A stretch of 63,520 nucleotides of DNA from NCBI GenBank assembly GCA_020346465.1, contig CP070783.1, positions 771,332-834,851 on the forward strand, in the 5' to 3' direction. A program made the translations under genes and the position numbers. This DNA is from Deltaproteobacteria bacterium. GTDB lineage: Bacteria; Desulfobacterota; Deferrimicrobia; Deferrimicrobiales; Deferrimicrobiaceae. Of this stretch, positions 8,212-62,863 are shown one piece after another. The number at the start of each line of letters is the position of its first letter. The stretch's first letter is position 1. The notes beneath the pieces are model-generated. The model worked only from the letters and a program-made list of their open reading frames with translations. It did not search any database and was not told where the DNA came from.

Positions 8212-8221
8212 CGCTTCCCCT

Positions 8222-9352
8222 TCACTCCTTCGGGGGCGTCCCGTCCTTGTCAAAATCGTCCCAGGTAAGGTCGGAGGTCGACGAAACCCCGCGCACGCGG
8301 AGGGCGAAGTCCTCGGGGTTGGATGCCTGCCGGAGCGCCTCCTCCATGGAGATCAGGTTTTCCTTGTGGAGAGCCATGAGGGACTGGTCGAATGTCTGCA
8401 TCCCGTAGCTCACGTATCCCTGGGCGATGGCCTCCCGGATCTTCTTTGTCTTGTCCTTGTCCTCGATGTACTCCCGGACGCGCGCCGTGTTGATCATCAC
8501 CTCGACCGCCGGGACCCTTCCCGTCGCGTCGGAGCGGGGGACCAGCCTCTGGGAAATGACGCCCTTCAGGATCGAGGCCAGCTGGATCCTCACCTGCTTG
8601 TGCTGGTAGGGGGGGAACACGCCGATGATCCGGTTGATCGTCTCCGCCGCATCGAGGGTATGGAGCGTCGACAGCACGAGATGTCCCGTCTCGGCCGCCA
8701 TGATCGCCGTCTCGATCGTGTCGAAGTCGCGCATCTCTCCGACGAGGATCACGTCCGGATCCTGGCGGAGGGCGTTTTTGAGGGCCCCGGCGAACGTGGA
8801 GGTGTCCGCGCCGATCTCCCGCTGGTTGATGATGCTTTTCCGGTCCCGGAGAAGGAACTCGATCGGATCCTCGATCGTGAGGATGTGGCAGCTCCGGTGG
8901 TTGTTGATGAAGTCCACGATCGAGGCCAGGGTTGTCGATTTCCCGCTCCCCGTGGTCCCGGTGCACAGGATGAGACCCCTCGTCTCCAGGGCCAGCTTCT
9001 CGATCACTCTCGGCAGGTGCAACTCCTCGAAGGAGAGGGTCCCGATCGCGATGACCCGGATGGCGATCCCGATCGTGCTGCGCTGCAGAAAGAGGTTCAC
9101 GCGGAACCGCCCCAGCCCCGGCACGCTGTAGGAGCAGTCGACCTCGTGGTTGTTTTCGAACCGTTCCTTCTGCTCCGTGGAGACGAGGATCCGGTCGCTG
9201 ATCGCGTTCAGGTCCTCGACCCGCAGGGGCTGCGGCACCTTGAGGGGCACGAGCTTTCCGTTGATGCGCACGATGGGGGGAAGCCCCACCTTCAGGTGGA
9301 TGTCGGAGGCGGAATTCTTGACCGCGGCCTTGAGGATGTCGTTGAGGTCCAA
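8222..9352 (-). CDS. pilT: Type IV pilus retraction ATPase PilT
   Basis: This 376-residue hexameric ATPase powers pilus retraction (twitching, DNA uptake). It has the PilT N-terminal motif SASDIHLKVGLPP, Walker A GTTGSGKST, the acidic HILTIEDPIEF box, Walker B VILVGEMRD and the HLVLSTLHT box. The start is TTG, directly following the recA stop (TAATTG), with AAGGCG just upstream in recA; the resulting N-terminus fits the family. No other pil genes are near, and its place between recA and recX suggests co-expression with recombination functions. Confidence 0.95.
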   Translation of the reverse strand: MDLNDILKAAVKNSASDIHLKVGLPPIVRINGKLVPLKVPQPLRVEDLNAISDRILVSTEQKERFENNHEVDCSYSVPGLGRFRVNLFLQRSTIGIAIRVIAIGTLSFEELHLPRVIEKLALETRGLILCTGTTGSGKSTTLASIVDFINNHRSCHILTIEDPIEFLLRDRKSIINQREIGADTSTFAGALKNALRQDPDVILVGEMRDFDTIETAIMAAETGHLVLSTLHTLDAAETINRIIGVFPPYQHKQVRIQLASILKGVISQRLVPRSDATGRVPAVEVMINTARVREYIEDKDKTKKIREAIAQGYVSYGMQTFDQSLMALHKENLISMEEALRQASNPEDFALRVRGVSSTSDLTWDDFDKDGTPPKE

Positions 9353-10384
9353 TTACGCCTTCCCTTCCTGCGCGGCCTTGGGGGGTTCCGCCATGCCCGA
9401 CTTCTCGAGGATTTTCCCGCACAGCTCCCTCGCAACGTCCGGGTGGTCCCGGAGGAAGACCCGCGCGTTCTCCCTTCCCTGTCCTATCCTCTCCCCCTGC
9501 ACGGAGTACCACGAACCGCTCTTTTCCACGACCCCCAGGTCGACGCCCAGGTCCAGGACGTCCCCCTCGCGGGAGATCCCGTCCCCGTAGAGGATGTCGA
9601 ACTCCGCCTCGCGGAAGGGGGGCGCAAGCTTGTTCTTGACCACCTTCACGCGGGTGCGCGCCCCGATGACCCCGTCGTCCTTCTTGATCTGGCTGATGCG
9701 CCGGATATCCATCCGGATCGTCGAGTAGAACTTCAGGGCGTTGCCGCCGGTGGTCGTCTCGGGGTTGCCGAACATCACCCCGATCTTCATGCGGATCTGG
9801 TTGATGAAGACGACAGCGGTCTGGGACTTGCTGATCGTTCCGGTCAGCTTCCTGAGCGCCTGGGACATGAGCCGCGCCTGGAGCCCCATGTGGGAGTCGC
9901 CCATCTCCCCCTCGATCTCCGCCTTCGGCACCAGCGCGGCCACCGAGTCGATCACCAGGACGTCCAGGGCGCCGCTGCGCACGAGCATCTCGGCGATTTC
10001 GAGCGCCTGCTCCCCCGTGTCCGGCTGCGAGACGAGGAGATCGTCGGTGTTCAGCCCGAGCTTGCGGGCATAGTTCAGATCGAGTGCGTGCTCCGCATCG
10101 ACGAAGCCCGCGATCCCGCCCTGCCTCTGGGCCTCGGCGATGATGTGGAGGGCCAGCGTGGTTTTCCCGGAGGACTCGGGCCCGAAGATCTCGGTCACGC
10201 GCCCCCTGGGGATCCCGCCGATCCCCAACGCGATGTCCAGCGAGATCGCCCCCGTCGAGATGGCGGGGACGTCCTTGGTCTGGACGTCGCTTCCCAGCCG
10301 CATGATCGCGCCTTTTCCATAACTCTTCTCGATCGCCGCAAGTGCCATGTCGAGCGCCTTGCGCCGGTTCGGATCCTGGCTCAT
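9353..10384 (-). CDS. recA: Recombinase RecA
   Basis: This 343-residue protein is the DNA strand-exchange ATPase and LexA co-protease. Walker [10 protein letters not shown] lies near residue 66, Walker B is LVIDSVAAL, loop L1 surrounds [15 protein letters not shown], and [17 protein letters not shown] and [10 protein letters not shown] are typical. Its ATG overlaps the thpR stop (ATGA), so it appears translationally coupled to an operon headed by pgpA. No obvious LexA-type operator was seen upstream. Confidence 0.99.
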
Positions 10385-57486: not shown

Positions 57487-57515
57487 TTGACAACGGCGGG
57501 GGGGGGAGATACCAT
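57487..57515 (+). promoter_or_regulatory. Promoter of the thiamine operon
   Basis: TTGACA (57487-57492) and TACCAT (57510-57515) are exactly 17 bases apart, with transcription expected near 57522, where the riboswitch begins. The spacer contains a run of nine Gs (57498-57506). Confidence 0.7.
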
Positions 57516-57521
57516 GTTCCT

Positions 57522-57616
57522 ACAGACGCCAGGGGTGCTCTTCGCTGAGAGTCCGCGCATCGCGCGGGCAACCCGTCGAACCTGATCCGGATAATACCGG
57601 CGCAGGGAGCGTGGTT
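57522..57616 (+). promoter_or_regulatory. Thiamine pyrophosphate riboswitch (THI element)
   Basis: The conserved THI box elements are present in order: GGGGTGC then GCTGAGA (57532-57550), ACCC..GAACCTGATCCGG (57571-57590), and GATAATACCGGCGCAGGGAGC. The closing stem pairs ACGC (57526-57529) with GCGT (57609-57612). TPP binding should favour the terminator just downstream and turn off the thiH-like/thiSGEC operon. Confidence 0.95.
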
Positions 57617-57620
57617 CTCT

Positions 57621-57658
57621 CCGCACCGTACCTTTCCCTGGTGCGGTTTTTCTTTTTT
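57621..57658 (+). terminator. Riboswitch-controlled intrinsic terminator
   Basis: CCGCACC (57621-57627) pairs with GGTGCGG (57640-57646), followed by TTTTTCTTTTTT (57647-57658). It lies five bases after the aptamer and 22 bases before the first gene, so the riboswitch most likely works by transcription termination. Confidence 0.92.
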
Positions 57659-57679
57659 CCCAGGGGGGGAACGAAGACG

Positions 57680-59083
57680 ATGCTTCCACAGAACAAGCCG
57701 AGGAACGGCGACCTCCTCCCCGTCTCCGCGGAGGAGATCTCCCGGCTTCTCGGGGAGGCCGCCCCCTTCCGGCGGCGCGAGGCGTTTTCCCTGCTCGGGT
57801 CCCTGACCCCGCGGCGCAGGCTCACCCTTCCGGAAGCCGCCCGCCTGCTGGCCACGGCCGACCCGATGGTGTGGGAGAAGGCCGCGGCGATGGCCCGGGC
57901 CGTGCGCGAAGAGGTCTTCGGGCGGCGGATCGTGCTGTTCGCCCCCCTCTACCTCTCCAACGATTGCGTGAACAACTGCCTGTACTGCGGATTCCGCCAG
58001 GTCAACCGGGAAGCCCGGAGGATCACCCTCTCCCCCGCGGAGGCGGTCCGGGAGGCCCGCTTCCTGGAGAAGAAGGGGTACCACCGCCTCCTGCTGGTCA
58101 GCGGGGAGAACCCGGGGAAGACCGACGCCTCGTACCTCGCGCAGGTCCTGCGGGCGATCTACCGGGAAACGGGGATGCGCATCCTGCACGTCAACGCCGC
58201 CCCGATGCCGGAGGAGGAGCTTGCGCTCCTCAAGGAGGCAGGCGCGGGAGTCTACCAGGTCTTCCAGGAGACGTACCACCCGAAGACCTACCGGGAGATG
58301 CACCCCTCCGGGCCGAAGGCCGACTACGCCTGGCGCCTCACCTGCATGGACCGGGCGCTGCGGGCGGGGTTCCGGGACGTCGGGATCGGCGCGCTGCTCG
58401 GGCTGCACGACTACCGGTTCGAGGTCCTGTCGGTCATCCGGCACGCGGAGTCCCTCCTGGAGACGCACGGGACCTTCCCGCACACGATCTCCGTCCCCCG
58501 GTTCAAGAGGGCGTTCGGCGCCCCCCTGACCAGGCCGCCCCGGCCGGTCTCCGACCGGGAGTTCGAGAAGATCGTGATCGTCTACCGGCTCTCCGTCCCG
58601 CCGGCGGGCGTCGTCGTCTCCACGCGGGAACCGGCGGCGCTGCGGGAGAGGGTGCTCGACATCGGCGCCTCGCAGATCAGCGCGGGGTCGAAGACCGACC
58701 CGGGCGGATACACGCAGGAGGCGCGGCACGCCGACTCGGAGCAGTTCGAGCTCGACGACACCCGCCCGATCGAGGAGATCGTCCGGATGATCCTCGGGCG
58801 CGGGTACCTTCCCTCCCTGTGCACCAGCTGCTACCGGATCGACCGCACGGGAGAGACCTTCACGGAGATGGCGACCGACGGCCACATCCGCGGGTTCTGC
58901 CTCCCCAACGCGCTGCTGACGCTGGCCGAGTACGCCGTGGCCGCGGAGGACGCCCGGCTGCGGGAGCAGTGTCTCGCGGCGGTCGCGGAGGGGACGAAGG
59001 AGATGGAGGGGTCTCCCCTCGCCGGGGAATTCGCGCAGAAGCTGGCGCGGGTGATCGCGGGGGAGAAGGACCTGTTTTTCTGA
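57680..59083 (+). CDS. HydG/ThiH-like radical SAM tyrosine lyase
   Basis: This 467-residue radical SAM enzyme has the SAM-cluster motif CVNNCLYCGF near residue 100. Its C-terminus contains CTSC followed exactly 22 residues later by another Cys (CX2CX22C, nt about 58820-58902), then LPNALLTLAEY. This is the auxiliary-cluster motif of HydG, the [FeFe]-hydrogenase maturase, and is not expected in ThiH. HydG and ThiH both split tyrosine into p-cresol and dehydroglycine. The gene is first after a TPP riboswitch and before thiS-thiG, so its likely job is to supply dehydroglycine for the thiazole ring. No hydrogenase genes are seen. The ATG at 57680 was chosen because it follows the terminator and a GGGGGG site. 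Confidence 0.9.
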   Translation: MLPQNKPRNGDLLPVSAEEISRLLGEAAPFRRREAFSLLGSLTPRRRLTLPEAARLLATADPMVWEKAAAMARAVREEVFGRRIVLFAPLYLSNDCVNNCLYCGFRQVNREARRITLSPAEAVREARFLEKKGYHRLLLVSGENPGKTDASYLAQVLRAIYRETGMRILHVNAAPMPEEELALLKEAGAGVYQVFQETYHPKTYREMHPSGPKADYAWRLTCMDRALRAGFRDVGIGALLGLHDYRFEVLSVIRHAESLLETHGTFPHTISVPRFKRAFGAPLTRPPRPVSDREFEKIVIVYRLSVPPAGVVVSTREPAALRERVLDIGASQISAGSKTDPGGYTQEARHADSEQFELDDTRPIEEIVRMILGRGYLPSLCTSCYRIDRTGETFTEMATDGHIRGFCLPNALLTLAEYAVAAEDARLREQCLAAVAEGTKEMEGSPLAGEFAQKLARVIAGEKDLFF

Positions 59084-59099: not shown

Positions 59100-59300
59100 A
59101 TGGAAATCTTCGTGAACGGGGAGACGCGGCAGATCGGGGAGGGGGCGACGGTCCTTCTCCTCCTCCGCGAGCTCTCCCTGCCGGAGACGCGCGTGGCGGT
59201 GGAGCGGAACCGGTCCCTCGTGCGGAAGGCGGAGTTCGCCGACACGGTCCTGGGCGAGGGGGACCGGATCGAGATCGTGACATTCGTGGGAGGGGGGTAG
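59100..59300 (+). CDS. thiS: Sulfur carrier protein ThiS
   Basis: This 66-residue ubiquitin-fold protein begins MEIFVNGETRQIGEG and ends in VGGG, with the C-terminal Gly-Gly that is converted to a thiocarboxylate and gives sulfur to the thiazole. A GGAGGAG site precedes the ATG. ThiF, which activates it, is not in the window. Confidence 0.96.
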   Translation: MEIFVNGETRQIGEGATVLLLLRELSLPETRVAVERNRSLVRKAEFADTVLGEGDRIEIVTFVGGG

Positions 59301-59303
59301 AGC

Positions 59304-60074
59304 ATGGACACTCCGTTTACCCTTGGAGGAAAGACGTTCCGGTCCCGGCTCCTGGTGGGCACGGGGAAGTACCCGGATTACCCGTCGATGGTCCGGGCGC
59401 TCGAGGCCTCGGGGGCCGAGATCGTGACGGTGGCGGTCCGGCGGGTGAACCTGGACAGGAGCAAGGAGTCCCTCCTGGACCACGTCGACCCGAAAAAGTA
59501 CACCCTCCTTCCCAACACGGCCGCCTGCTACACGGTGGACGACGCGGTGCGCACCTGTTTCCTCGCCCGCGAGGCGGGGATGTCGAACATGGTCAAGCTC
59601 GAGGTGATCGGGGACGAAAAGACCCTCTTCCCCGACACGGAGGGGCTTCTGGTGGCGGCGAAGCAGCTGGTCAGGGAGGGGTTCATCGTCCTGCCGTACA
59701 CCAACGACGACCCGATCATGGCGAAGAAGCTCGAGGACGCGGGGTGCGCCGCGGTGATGCCGCTGGCGGCCCCGATCGGGTCGGGCTTGGGGATCCGCAA
59801 CCCGTTCAACATCCGGATCATCCTGGAGACCGTGAAGGTCCCGGTGATCGTGGACGCGGGGGTGGGAACGGCGTCCGACGCGGCGGTGGCGATGGAGCTC
59901 GGGTGCGACGGCGTCCTGATGAACACGGGGATCGCGGGCGCGAAGGACCCGGTGCTGATGGCCGAGGCGATGCGGGAGGCGGTCTCCGCGGGGAGGAAGG
60001 CGTTCCTCGCCGGCAGGATCGCGAAGAAGCTCTACGCCACGGCGTCCTCGCCGCTGGACGGGACGTTCTTTTAG
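59304..60074 (+). CDS. thiG: Thiazole synthase ThiG
   Basis: This 256-residue TIM-barrel protein joins deoxyxylulose phosphate, dehydroglycine and ThiS-carried sulfur into the thiazole phosphate. It has [15 protein letters not shown], the imine-forming Lys in [26 protein letters not shown] and [28 protein letters not shown]. It follows thiS by three bases. Confidence 0.98.
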
Positions 60075-60091: not shown

Positions 60092-60766
60092 GTGAAGGTC
60101 GACTTCCGCGTCTACCTGATCACCGACCGCAGGCAGGCGCCGGGGGGCGACATCGCAAGGGCCGTCGCGGGTGCCCTCGACGGCGGGATCCGGGCCGTCC
60201 AGCTCCGGGAGAAGGACCTTCCGGGGAGCGAGCTCTTCCGGCTCGCCGGGCGGATGCGGGATCTCACGGCAAGGCACGGGGCCCGGCTTCTCGTGAACGA
60301 CCGCGTCGACGTCGCCCTGGCCGTCGGTGCCGACGGCGTTCACCTCGGGGGCGCCTCGATCCCCGCGTCGGTCGCCCGGGGGCTCCTCGGCAAGGAGGCG
60401 CTCATCGGCTGCTCCACGCACGGCGCGCGCGAGCTGCGGGAGGCGGTCGACCAGGGGGCGGACTTCGTGACGTTCGGCCCGGTCTACCCGACGCCGTCGA
60501 AGGCCGCGTACGGGCCGCCGGTGGGTGTGGCGGCCCTCGCGGAAGCGTGCCGGACGGCGGCCGTCCCCGTCTTCGCCCTGGGCGGGGTCAAGGCGGAGAA
60601 CGCCGGGGAGGTGATCGGGGCGGGCGCGTTCGGCATCGCGCTGATTTCCGGGATCGTGGCCGCGGCGGACCCCCGGGGGGCCGCGGCGGAACTTGTCGCC
60701 CGTTACGAAAAACCGCCCGCCGCCGGAAAGGCGCGGGGCGGGAACGCGAAGGAAGGTGAGCCATGA
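60092..60766 (+). CDS. thiE: Thiamine phosphate synthase ThiE
   Basis: This 224-residue TIM-barrel enzyme couples the pyrimidine and thiazole halves of thiamine. It has YLITDRRQ, VQLREKDL, LLVNDRVDVALAVGADGVHLG, IGCSTHG and FGPVYPTPSK. The GTG at 60092 with AAAGG upstream gives the usual N-terminus. Its stop overlaps the thiC ATG (ATGA). Confidence 0.96.
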   Translation: MKVDFRVYLITDRRQAPGGDIARAVAGALDGGIRAVQLREKDLPGSELFRLAGRMRDLTARHGARLLVNDRVDVALAVGADGVHLGGASIPASVARGLLGKEALIGCSTHGARELREAVDQGADFVTFGPVYPTPSKAAYGPPVGVAALAEACRTAAVPVFALGGVKAENAGEVIGAGAFGIALISGIVAAADPRGAAAELVARYEKPPAAGKARGGNAKEGEP

Positions 60767-62052
60767 CGCTGCTGCATAACGCAAGGAACGGAATCCTCTC
60801 GCCGCAGGTGGCGCTTGCCGCCGCGGAGGAAGGGATCCCCCCGGAGAAGCTCCGGGGCCTCATCGCATCGGGGAGGGCCGTCCTCCCCCGGAACCGGAAG
60901 CGCAGGGAGATCCGGCCGGTCGCCATCGGGGAGGGGCTGCGCGTCAAGGTCAACGCCAACGTCGGCTCCTCGCGCGACCGGGCCGACGTGTCGCTCGAGC
61001 TGGAAAAGACGCGGGTCGCCGTCGCGGCGGGCGCCGACGCCGTGATGGACCTGTCCACGGGGGGGCCGATCGACGAGATCCGCAGGGCGATCCTCGCGGA
61101 GTGCCCCGTGCCCGTGGGGACCGTCCCCGTCTACCAGGCCGCCGCCGACGCGGCCGGCAAGGGAAAGTCCTGGGTCGAGCTCACCCCCGACGACTTCTTC
61201 GAAGGGATCGTGAAGCAGGCCGAGGACGGGGTCGATTTCATGACGGTCCACTGCGGGGTGACGCGGGAGGCCCTCGAGCGCCTGATCCGGGAAGGCCGCC
61301 GGCTGGACATCGTCAGCCGGGGCGGGTCCCTGCTGGCGGAGTGGATGGAGTACAACGACCGGGAGAACCCGTTCTACGAGCAGTACGACCGGCTGGTCGA
61401 CATCTGCCGGGAGTACGACATCACCATCTCGCTGGGGGACGGCCTGCGGCCGGGATGCCTCTCCGACGCGACCGACCGCGCGCAGGTCCACGAGCTGATG
61501 ATGCTCGGCGAGCTCACCGAGCGCGCCTGGGAAAAGGACGTGCAGGTCATGATCGAGGGGCCGGGGCACGTGCCGATGGACCAGATCGCGGCGAACGTGG
61601 TGCTCCAGAAGCGCCTGTGCCACGGGGCGCCGTTCTACGTTCTCGGTCCCCTGGTCACCGACATCGCGCCGGGATACGACCACATCACCTCCGCGATCGG
61701 GGGGGCGATCGCCGCGTGGAGCGGGGCGGATTTCCTGTGCTACGTGACGCCGTCCGAGCACCTTCGGCTCCCGTCGGTCGGGGACGTGAAGGAAGGGGTG
61801 ATCACCTCCCGCATCGCCGCCCACGCCGCCGACATCGCGCGGAAACTCCCGGGCGCGATGGACCGGGACAACCGGATGGCCGACGCCAGGCGGAACCTCG
61901 ACTGGAAGAGCCAGATCGAGCTGTCGCTCGACCCGGAGCGGGCGCGCGAACTGCGCGGGGGAAGCCTGCCGACGGCCGACGAGTCCGCCTGCACGATGTG
62001 CGCAGACCTCTGTGCCATCAAGACATCGCAGAAGGCGATCCGGCGACGGTAG
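60763..62052 (+). CDS. thiC: Phosphomethylpyrimidine synthase ThiC
   Basis: This 429-residue radical SAM enzyme converts AIR to HMP phosphate. It has NANVGSSRDRADVSLELEK, MTVHCGVT, SLGDGLRPGCLSDATDRAQ, MIEGPGHVPMDQI and the C-terminal cluster motif CTMCADLCAIK (CX2CX4C). It lacks the long N-terminal extension of E. coli ThiC, like many anaerobe forms. Confidence 0.98.
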   Translation: MTLLHNARNGILSPQVALAAAEEGIPPEKLRGLIASGRAVLPRNRKRREIRPVAIGEGLRVKVNANVGSSRDRADVSLELEKTRVAVAAGADAVMDLSTGGPIDEIRRAILAECPVPVGTVPVYQAAADAAGKGKSWVELTPDDFFEGIVKQAEDGVDFMTVHCGVTREALERLIREGRRLDIVSRGGSLLAEWMEYNDRENPFYEQYDRLVDICREYDITISLGDGLRPGCLSDATDRAQVHELMMLGELTERAWEKDVQVMIEGPGHVPMDQIAANVVLQKRLCHGAPFYVLGPLVTDIAPGYDHITSAIGGAIAAWSGADFLCYVTPSEHLRLPSVGDVKEGVITSRIAAHAADIARKLPGAMDRDNRMADARRNLDWKSQIELSLDPERARELRGGSLPTADESACTMCADLCAIKTSQKAIRRR

Positions 62053-62064
62053 CGGCCGGGGGGC

Positions 62065-62083
62065 CTCCGCTCCGGAAGCGGAG
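62065..62083. repeat. GC-rich hairpin after thiC
   Basis: CTCCGCT (62065-62071) and AGCGGAG (62077-62083) flank a five-base loop, CCGGA. No T-run follows, so it is not a standard terminator. It may stabilise the thiC mRNA end or weaken translation of the next gene. Confidence 0.4.
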
Positions 62084-62092
62084 CCGGGGCTC

Positions 62093-62863
62093 ATGCCGGT
62101 GGACCGGGCGCTGCGCCAGCGGGGGATCGTCGAATCCGACATCGCCGGGGAGGGACGCACACTTCTGCCCTATCTCGCCTCCCCCGGGGACCGCGAGTCC
62201 CTCTACGGCCTTCTCCACTCCTACGCGTTCCGCCTCTTCCTGCGCGACATCCTCGCCCTGCGGGACCGGTACCAGCCGGAGCGCCTGGGACCCTTCTTCT
62301 CGCCGGAATCCGTGGAGCGGATGGCCCGGCAGGTCGAGCGCCTCGGGCTCATCCGGCGCATGCGGGGCGGGAAGATCCGCCTGTTGGCCGACGCGGTCAA
62401 GGATTTCGGGGACACCTTCGAGTGGTTCGTCGCCGAGACGCTCCGGCGGGAGTTCGCCGCCGACGTCCTCTGGGGGGTGACGATCCCGGGCCTGCCGTGC
62501 GGGGGGGATTTCGACATCCTCGCGCTGGTCGCCGGGAAGCTCCTCTACCTGGAGACGAAGACCTCCCCGCCCAAGCACATCGAGCAGAAGGAGATGTCGG
62601 CGTTCCTCGCCCGGGTGAAGACGCTGTCGCCGGACTTCGCCATCGTCCTCGTGGACACGCACCTGAGGATGAAGGACAAGCTCGTGCCGCTTCTCTCGGA
62701 GGGGCTCCGCGCGGAGGGGATGGCCGACGGGAAGATGGAGAGAGTGGAGAAGGAGACCTTCTCCTGGGAACGGCGGATCTACCTCACCAACGCCAAGCGG
62801 GACATCGCGTCGAACCTCTCCCTCTGCCTGCGGAACTACTTTTTGGACCGGTTCTTCGGCTGA
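62093..62863 (+). CDS. Uncharacterised protein with a PD-(D/E)XK nuclease-like core
   Basis: This 256-residue protein has an N-terminal helical part resembling a winged helix (ESVERMARQVERLGLIRRMRGGKIRLL) and a core with FVAETLRREFA, then GDFDILALVAGKLLYLETKTSPP. The Asp of FDIL and the ETK about 15 residues later fit the metal site of PD-(D/E)XK phosphodiesterases, and a later QKEMSAFLARV helix also suits that fold. A role in nucleic acid cleavage or repair is inferred. No named family was recognised. The ATG at 62093 was chosen because the longer reading is arginine-rich shadow. It overlaps cvpA by 28 bases on the opposite strand. Confidence 0.8.
   Translation: MPVDRALRQRGIVESDIAGEGRTLLPYLASPGDRESLYGLLHSYAFRLFLRDILALRDRYQPERLGPFFSPESVERMARQVERLGLIRRMRGGKIRLLADAVKDFGDTFEWFVAETLRREFAADVLWGVTIPGLPCGGDFDILALVAGKLLYLETKTSPPKHIEQKEMSAFLARVKTLSPDFAIVLVDTHLRMKDKLVPLLSEGLRAEGMADGKMERVEKETFSWERRIYLTNAKRDIASNLSLCLRNYFLDRFFG

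Follow-up and report, generated by a model that had tools for sequence, protein, structure and literature searches.

The window analysed here is a stretch of 63,520 nucleotides from a deltaproteobacterium of the family Deferrimicrobiaceae (contig CP070783.1), and it contains a thiamine operon whose first gene, hydG*, encodes a radical S-adenosylmethionine (SAM) tyrosine lyase of the HydG family. We propose that this enzyme acts as ThiH and that its auxiliary cluster is selected for something other than assembly of the H-cluster, a reading to which we give a probability of about 0.82. More widely, in many deltaproteobacteria without [FeFe]-hydrogenase, a HydG-type tyrosine lyase appears to replace ThiH in vitamin B1 synthesis. 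To our knowledge, the only function ascribed to the auxiliary cluster of HydG is the conversion of dehydroglycine into carbon monoxide (CO) and cyanide for [FeFe]-hydrogenase. However, the auxiliary ligands and the histidine of the fifth, or dangler, iron are kept in 40 diverged homologues of the window enzyme, and all 35 carrier genomes searched are without HydA; therefore the cluster should have a second selected use.

The initial annotation had pointed to a radical SAM motif, CX3CX2C, and a C-terminal CX2CX22C motif in the translated gene, and both are exact (Table 1). In the alignment the cysteines of the second motif match those of the HydG auxiliary cluster column for column. Against the HydG hidden Markov model (HMM) TIGR03955 the protein scored 387.8 bits, above the curated cut-off of 312.15, as did nine more proteins of the same kind, whereas its score with the ThiH model TIGR02351 was 311.7 bits, below the curated cut-off of 380. 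The closest solved structures are HydG 4WCX and 4RTB, far ahead of ThiH 7PD1. An AlphaFold2 model (predicted local distance difference test, pLDDT, 94.3) aligned to 4WCX with template modelling (TM) scores of 0.92/0.95 over 462 columns, the C-terminal domain included, compared with 0.71/0.90 for ThiH. It had been considered that the protein might group inside canonical ThiH and carry the motif by chance. The CX2CX22C pattern occurred in 153 of 100,000 shuffles of the protein (0.15%), but coincidence was rejected on the column match with HydG and on the universal presence of the cysteines in the clade; a canonical ThiH with a stray motif is ruled out by the HMM scores, the fold and the tree described below.

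The gene heads an operon in which thiS, thiG, thiE and thiC all follow directly 3' with short gaps or overlaps, confirming the grouping seen earlier. A clear thiamine pyrophosphate (TPP) riboswitch ahead of the first gene had also been reported, and the RF00059 match places a full-length aptamer there, above the gathering score. The interval given in the initial annotation begins at this aptamer, whereas the coding sequence begins at the ATG at 57680. The intrinsic terminator between the aptamer and the gene is probably the expression platform of the riboswitch.

The window genome, a single 2.32-Mb contig that is 96% complete, has deltaproteobacterial metagenome-assembled genomes (MAGs) such as CSP1-8 as its nearest named relatives, and was examined through family searches. 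The enzyme described here is the sole HydG/ThiH homologue in it. The searches of this genome gave no HydA and no match over the cut-off for HydE or HydF, and the [NiFe]-hydrogenase large subunit was found neither there nor in genome G009. An undetected hydrogenase was rejected as a candidate on the same searches, which were empty or below cut-off. The earlier remark that no hydrogenase gene is visible is thus true of the whole genome, which also offers no hydrogenase maturation set that could depend on this gene. The genome has one ThiF-like protein, which scored 230 bits against a curated cut-off of 275 and so fell short of it; activation of ThiS therefore looks possible.

Homologues were drawn from two surveys, one covering 59 relatives and the other 395 genomes from the phylum, and from a genome collection that was scanned as well. 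The sampling is centred on one phylum, and many of the genomes are MAGs. HydG-family genes in the surveys fall into two kinds, thi-type and other. We collected 40 thi-type proteins, with genes in nine survey families (f1, f2, f42, f44, f47, f53, f59, f87 and f92). Directly downstream of 38 of the 40 lies thiS and/or thiG, and hyd genes were found near none of the 40. Of the 30 loci whose upstream region could be scanned, 27 have a TPP aptamer there. One of the remaining two loci (L036) ends at a contig end; the other (L039) is discussed below. Non-thi HydG genes adjoin hydA, hydE or hydF or have no diagnostic neighbour, and thi genes were found near none of them. In G102 and G335 a thi-type gene coexists with another HydG, located elsewhere and adjoining a HydE-like gene; this suggests that one kind cannot simply stand in for the other. 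Genome G337 has a HydG in hyd context and a canonical ThiH, and in addition a further HydG gene (L208:6330-7730) that has no hyd genes beside it. At the best cut-off for HydG, 179 of 180 genomes were found to have HydF as well (PMC3226654), which makes a HydG lineage without a hydrogenase unusual. We found no record of a HydG in a thiamine operon in the literature searched, a search that left out most subscription journals.

Canonical ThiH was not found over the cut-off in any of the 35 genomes carrying a thi-type gene. Another source of dehydroglycine for ThiG is the glycine oxidase ThiO, an unrelated flavoenzyme, and this was absent over the cut-off from all 27 thi-type genomes searched. The survey for [FeFe]-hydrogenase covered 37 genomes, two of them without the gene, and HydA was present in none of the 35 carriers. 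In the window's family, all 15 genomes with a thi-type gene are without ThiH, and of the nine without a thi-type gene seven have canonical ThiH. This mutual exclusion gave Fisher p = 1e-4 within the family and p = 9e-7 against all 35 carriers, values that ignore shared ancestry. A single genus can hold both kinds of lyase (G005 versus G015 and G019). The ThiG tree separated 34 ThiG proteins of thi-type operons from 12 of ThiH genomes with support of 100/100, and the ThiG of ThiH-bearing members of the window's family fell on the ThiH-genome side of that split. The ThiG partner switches along with the lyase, therefore the whole thiG-lyase module is exchanged, and within the family the thi-type lyase alternates with combined ThiH-ThiG modules. 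From HMM scores, fold, operon, riboswitch, absence of ThiH and co-inherited ThiG, we predict with high confidence that the thi-type enzyme is the ThiH of these bacteria. It shares with ThiH the thiS-thiG-thiE-thiC context and the same expected reaction; it differs from ThiH in its extra C-terminal domain and in a ThiG partner of another clade.

The trees also bear on where this lineage came from. Without an outgroup, 32 thi-type proteins were split from 30 other HydG proteins with support of 100/100, forming a separate lineage. In careful trees rooted with ThiH, thi-type and hydrogenase HydG were two sister clades, with support in three such trees of 91/87 for thi-type and 89/88 for hydrogenase HydG, 82/98 and 82/74, and, after removal of long branches, 86/90 and 93/88. 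In a quick ThiH-rooted tree, by contrast, the thi group was paraphyletic and enclosed the clade of hydrogenase HydG. Placement of the root is weak (82-93% bootstrap). Thi-type proteins were nested in hydrogenase HydG in no tree. The initial annotation had proposed that a HydG lineage was recruited as ThiH; a HydG-family protein in the ThiH role is what the evidence above indicates, but simple recruitment from hydrogenase HydG is not supported. The thi-type would rather be the sister lineage of hydrogenase HydG or its stem: separation at an early date, or an origin of hydrogenase HydG from the thi-type, fits equally well or better.

Residues were compared among 40 thi-type, 95 other HydG-family and 13 ThiH proteins. 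The radical SAM cysteines are kept in 39 of 39 thi-type proteins and all three auxiliary cysteines in 40 of 40, a few members having slightly different spacing to the third. The window residue H268 is the equivalent of His265 in Thermoanaerobacter italicus HydG, which we take to be the ligand of the dangler iron; this histidine is present in 40/40 thi-type and 95/95 other HydG proteins, and in 0/13 ThiH. The tyrosine-pocket residues T315, R316, R322, S334 and S337 are likewise kept in all 40. At the position of ThiH Glu158 (Thermosinus carboxydivorans numbering), a residue that binds the carboxylate of tyrosine, the thi-type clade has a HydG-type Asn (N172 in the window enzyme), and in the proposed dehydroglycine channel (residues as defined in PMC9046217) it has the HydG-type F87 and F195 where ThiH has Tyr.

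In contrast to these features shared with HydG, seven positions that are fixed in 95/95 other HydG proteins (379 being F or Y) are all changed in the thi-type, the window enzyme included: R165 to I, N167 to H, T188 to V, G263 to F/H/W/Y, Y305 to S/T/P, F/Y379 to L and M394 to T (T. italicus numbering, checked against E133, F81 and F192 of PMC9046217). T306 and Y74 also differ in nearly all thi-type proteins. G263 is two residues ahead of the dangler His265, and F/Y379 is the immediate neighbour of the first auxiliary cysteine on its N-terminal side. R165 and N167 are alternating residues of one strand; the next residue of that strand to point inwards is the one that in ThiH touches the carboxylate of tyrosine, so both are expected to look into the lower part of the barrel. 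A "compensating" Glu has been described at ThiH position 128 in T. italicus HydG (PMC9046217); this position is Val in Carboxydothermus hydrogenoformans HydG and in nearly all HydG compared, and since the Glu is not general we did not rely on it as a criterion.

These data suggest how the enzyme might work. Scarcity of TPP would permit reading of the operon through the riboswitch, as the aptamer and terminator imply. The conserved active site would have the radical SAM cluster cleave SAM, and the resulting radical would split tyrosine into p-cresol and dehydroglycine (2-iminoacetate). By the established pathway, ThiG should then join dehydroglycine with the sulfur of the ThiS thiocarboxylate and with deoxyxylulose phosphate. 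HydG passes dehydroglycine on to its own second active site, whereas ThiH delivers it to ThiG (PMC9046217). Because the surroundings of the auxiliary cluster are remodelled, the most likely function of that cluster, which lies where the barrel ends at its lower side, would be to bind or shield dehydroglycine and hand it to the co-evolved ThiG with no breakdown to CO and cyanide; for such a relay or holding function, predicted from alignments, we would offer a little less than even odds. Three points weigh against our reading. One thi-type gene (L039:10001-11380) has all tested clade signatures, but the 10 kb around it contain no thi gene and no hyd gene. The ligand of the dangler iron is retained, so that the enzyme might still produce CO and cyanide. 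Finally, that the changed positions form one pocket is suggested by sequence and secondary structure rather than by coordinates.

Perhaps the cluster is purely structural, closing the bottom of the barrel or docking ThiG, with no chemistry on dehydroglycine in an enzyme that still serves as ThiH. The remodelled residues around the auxiliary ligands and the co-inheritance of ThiG would suit this, and ThiH works without such a C-terminal domain, but a purely structural cluster would have no need of the dangler-iron histidine that all 40 proteins keep, and we place this explanation second to the relay, as less likely than not. A further suggestion had been a dual-purpose enzyme whose cluster has another role. 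Another role for the cluster is the best open reading; dual purpose with [FeFe]-hydrogenase maturation is not supported, given the absence of HydA from the 35 carriers and of a [NiFe] large subunit from the window genome. The broader version, in which the thi-type is bifunctional and supplies dehydroglycine to ThiG together with CO and cyanide to some other metal centre, draws on the retention of every HydG ligand for CO and cyanide synthesis and on the different HydG lineage of G102 and G335, which adjoins a HypC-HydE fusion and implies that HydG can serve systems beyond [FeFe]-hydrogenase. It is made improbable by the same hydrogenase searches, in G009 as well, by the changes at residues fixed in other HydG and by the riboswitch, which ties expression to thiamine.

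That an auxiliary site holding iron and bound cysteine also gives the thiazole its sulfur, or some other group, seems more improbable still. The dangler iron of HydG does carry a free cysteine (PMC6212873) and its histidine ligand is kept here; however, ThiS with an intact GG tail is encoded beside the lyase gene, and with the ThiF-like protein the genome would seem equipped for the usual sulfur route. We give least credence, hardly any, to an ordinary hydrogenase HydG placed by accident in a thiamine operon: the HMM score and the fold would fit such a protein, but it is contradicted by the genome survey, in which neither a hydrogenase nor partner maturases turned up for the window genome, by the separate lineage in the tree, and by the fact that ThiH would otherwise be missing in all 35 carriers.

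If the enzyme is the ThiH of these bacteria, the thi-type set provides natural HydG variants from which to learn which residues give CO and cyanide and which release dehydroglycine to ThiG, and the lineage makes the origin of H-cluster assembly testable. It is conceivable, though we think it doubtful, that the two-cluster lyase first served thiamine synthesis, with the auxiliary cluster and dangler iron holding dehydroglycine for ThiG, and that hydrogenase HydG was derived by conversion of this site to a CO and cyanide factory; in that case the thi-type enzymes of today would represent a surviving stage on the way from ThiH to HydG. On the practical side, automatic annotation scores thi-type genes as HydG, so they may be miscounted as evidence of [FeFe]-hydrogenase, and genomes with such a gene look ThiH-deficient.

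Table 1. Features of the thiamine operon and of its first gene (positions in the window).
Feature	Position	Strand	Details
Candidate sigma-70-like promoter	57487..57515	+	TTGACA-17-TACCAT, 10/12 consensus matches; none expected from shuffles
TPP riboswitch aptamer RF00059	57521..57624	+	61 bits, gathering score 54.3; full length
Intrinsic terminator	57625..57659	+	stem-loop and T run; predicted fold
hydG*, HydG-family radical SAM tyrosine lyase, thi-type lineage, proposed ThiH	57680..59083	+	467 aa, ATG start
Radical SAM motif CX3CX2C	57965..57988	+	C96, C100, C103; translation and alignment
H268, equivalent of dangler-iron histidine (His265, T. italicus)	58481..58483	+	alignment
Auxiliary-cluster motif CX2CX22C	58820..58900	+	C381, C384, C407; translation and alignment
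thiS, sulfur carrier	59100..59300	+	C-terminal GG intact
thiG, thiazole synthase	59304..60074	+	PF05690, 368 bits; ThiG clade accompanying the lyase
thiE, thiamine phosphate synthase	60095..60766	+	predicted GTG start
thiC, phosphomethylpyrimidine synthase	60763..62052	+	follows thiE

An open reading frame (ORF) of 283 aa at 62012-62863 overlaps the end of thiC and may be co-transcribed with the thi operon; a Pfam search gave no match for it.

Among the non-thi HydG proteins, 65 of 95, mainly from Bacteroidales (among them L042:10001-11404, L049, L146 and L213), have A, D and T (or S) in place of T299, S318 and S321 (ThiH numbering). In ThiH and HydG these residues bind the phenolate of tyrosine, and they are described as strictly conserved. 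Many of the 65 genes adjoin hydA, hydE or hydF, and these proteins may have a different tyrosine pocket or perhaps another substrate altogether. In two of them, L146 (G052) and L213:4965-6482 (G180), the second auxiliary cysteine of CX2C is replaced by Gly (CTAG for CTAC), and one of the two loci has no hyd genes in reach.

The second HydG gene of G102 and G335 directly follows a fused ORF that begins with a HypC domain (PF01455) and continues as a radical SAM protein of the HydE family (TIGR03956, over the cut-off). The loci are L210:5566-8243 and 8221-9795 in G102 and L211:6575-9446 in G335, and G119 (L221) has this fusion too, truncated where the contig stops. Both G102 and G335 are without HydA but have a [NiFe]-hydrogenase, and the G102 locus continues with a HypB-like gene and a gene for a hydrogenase maturation protease. 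The anaerobic source of CO in [NiFe]-hydrogenase maturation is, as far as we know, unsettled, and this arrangement suggests that HydG and HydE could supply CO or cyanide to that process.
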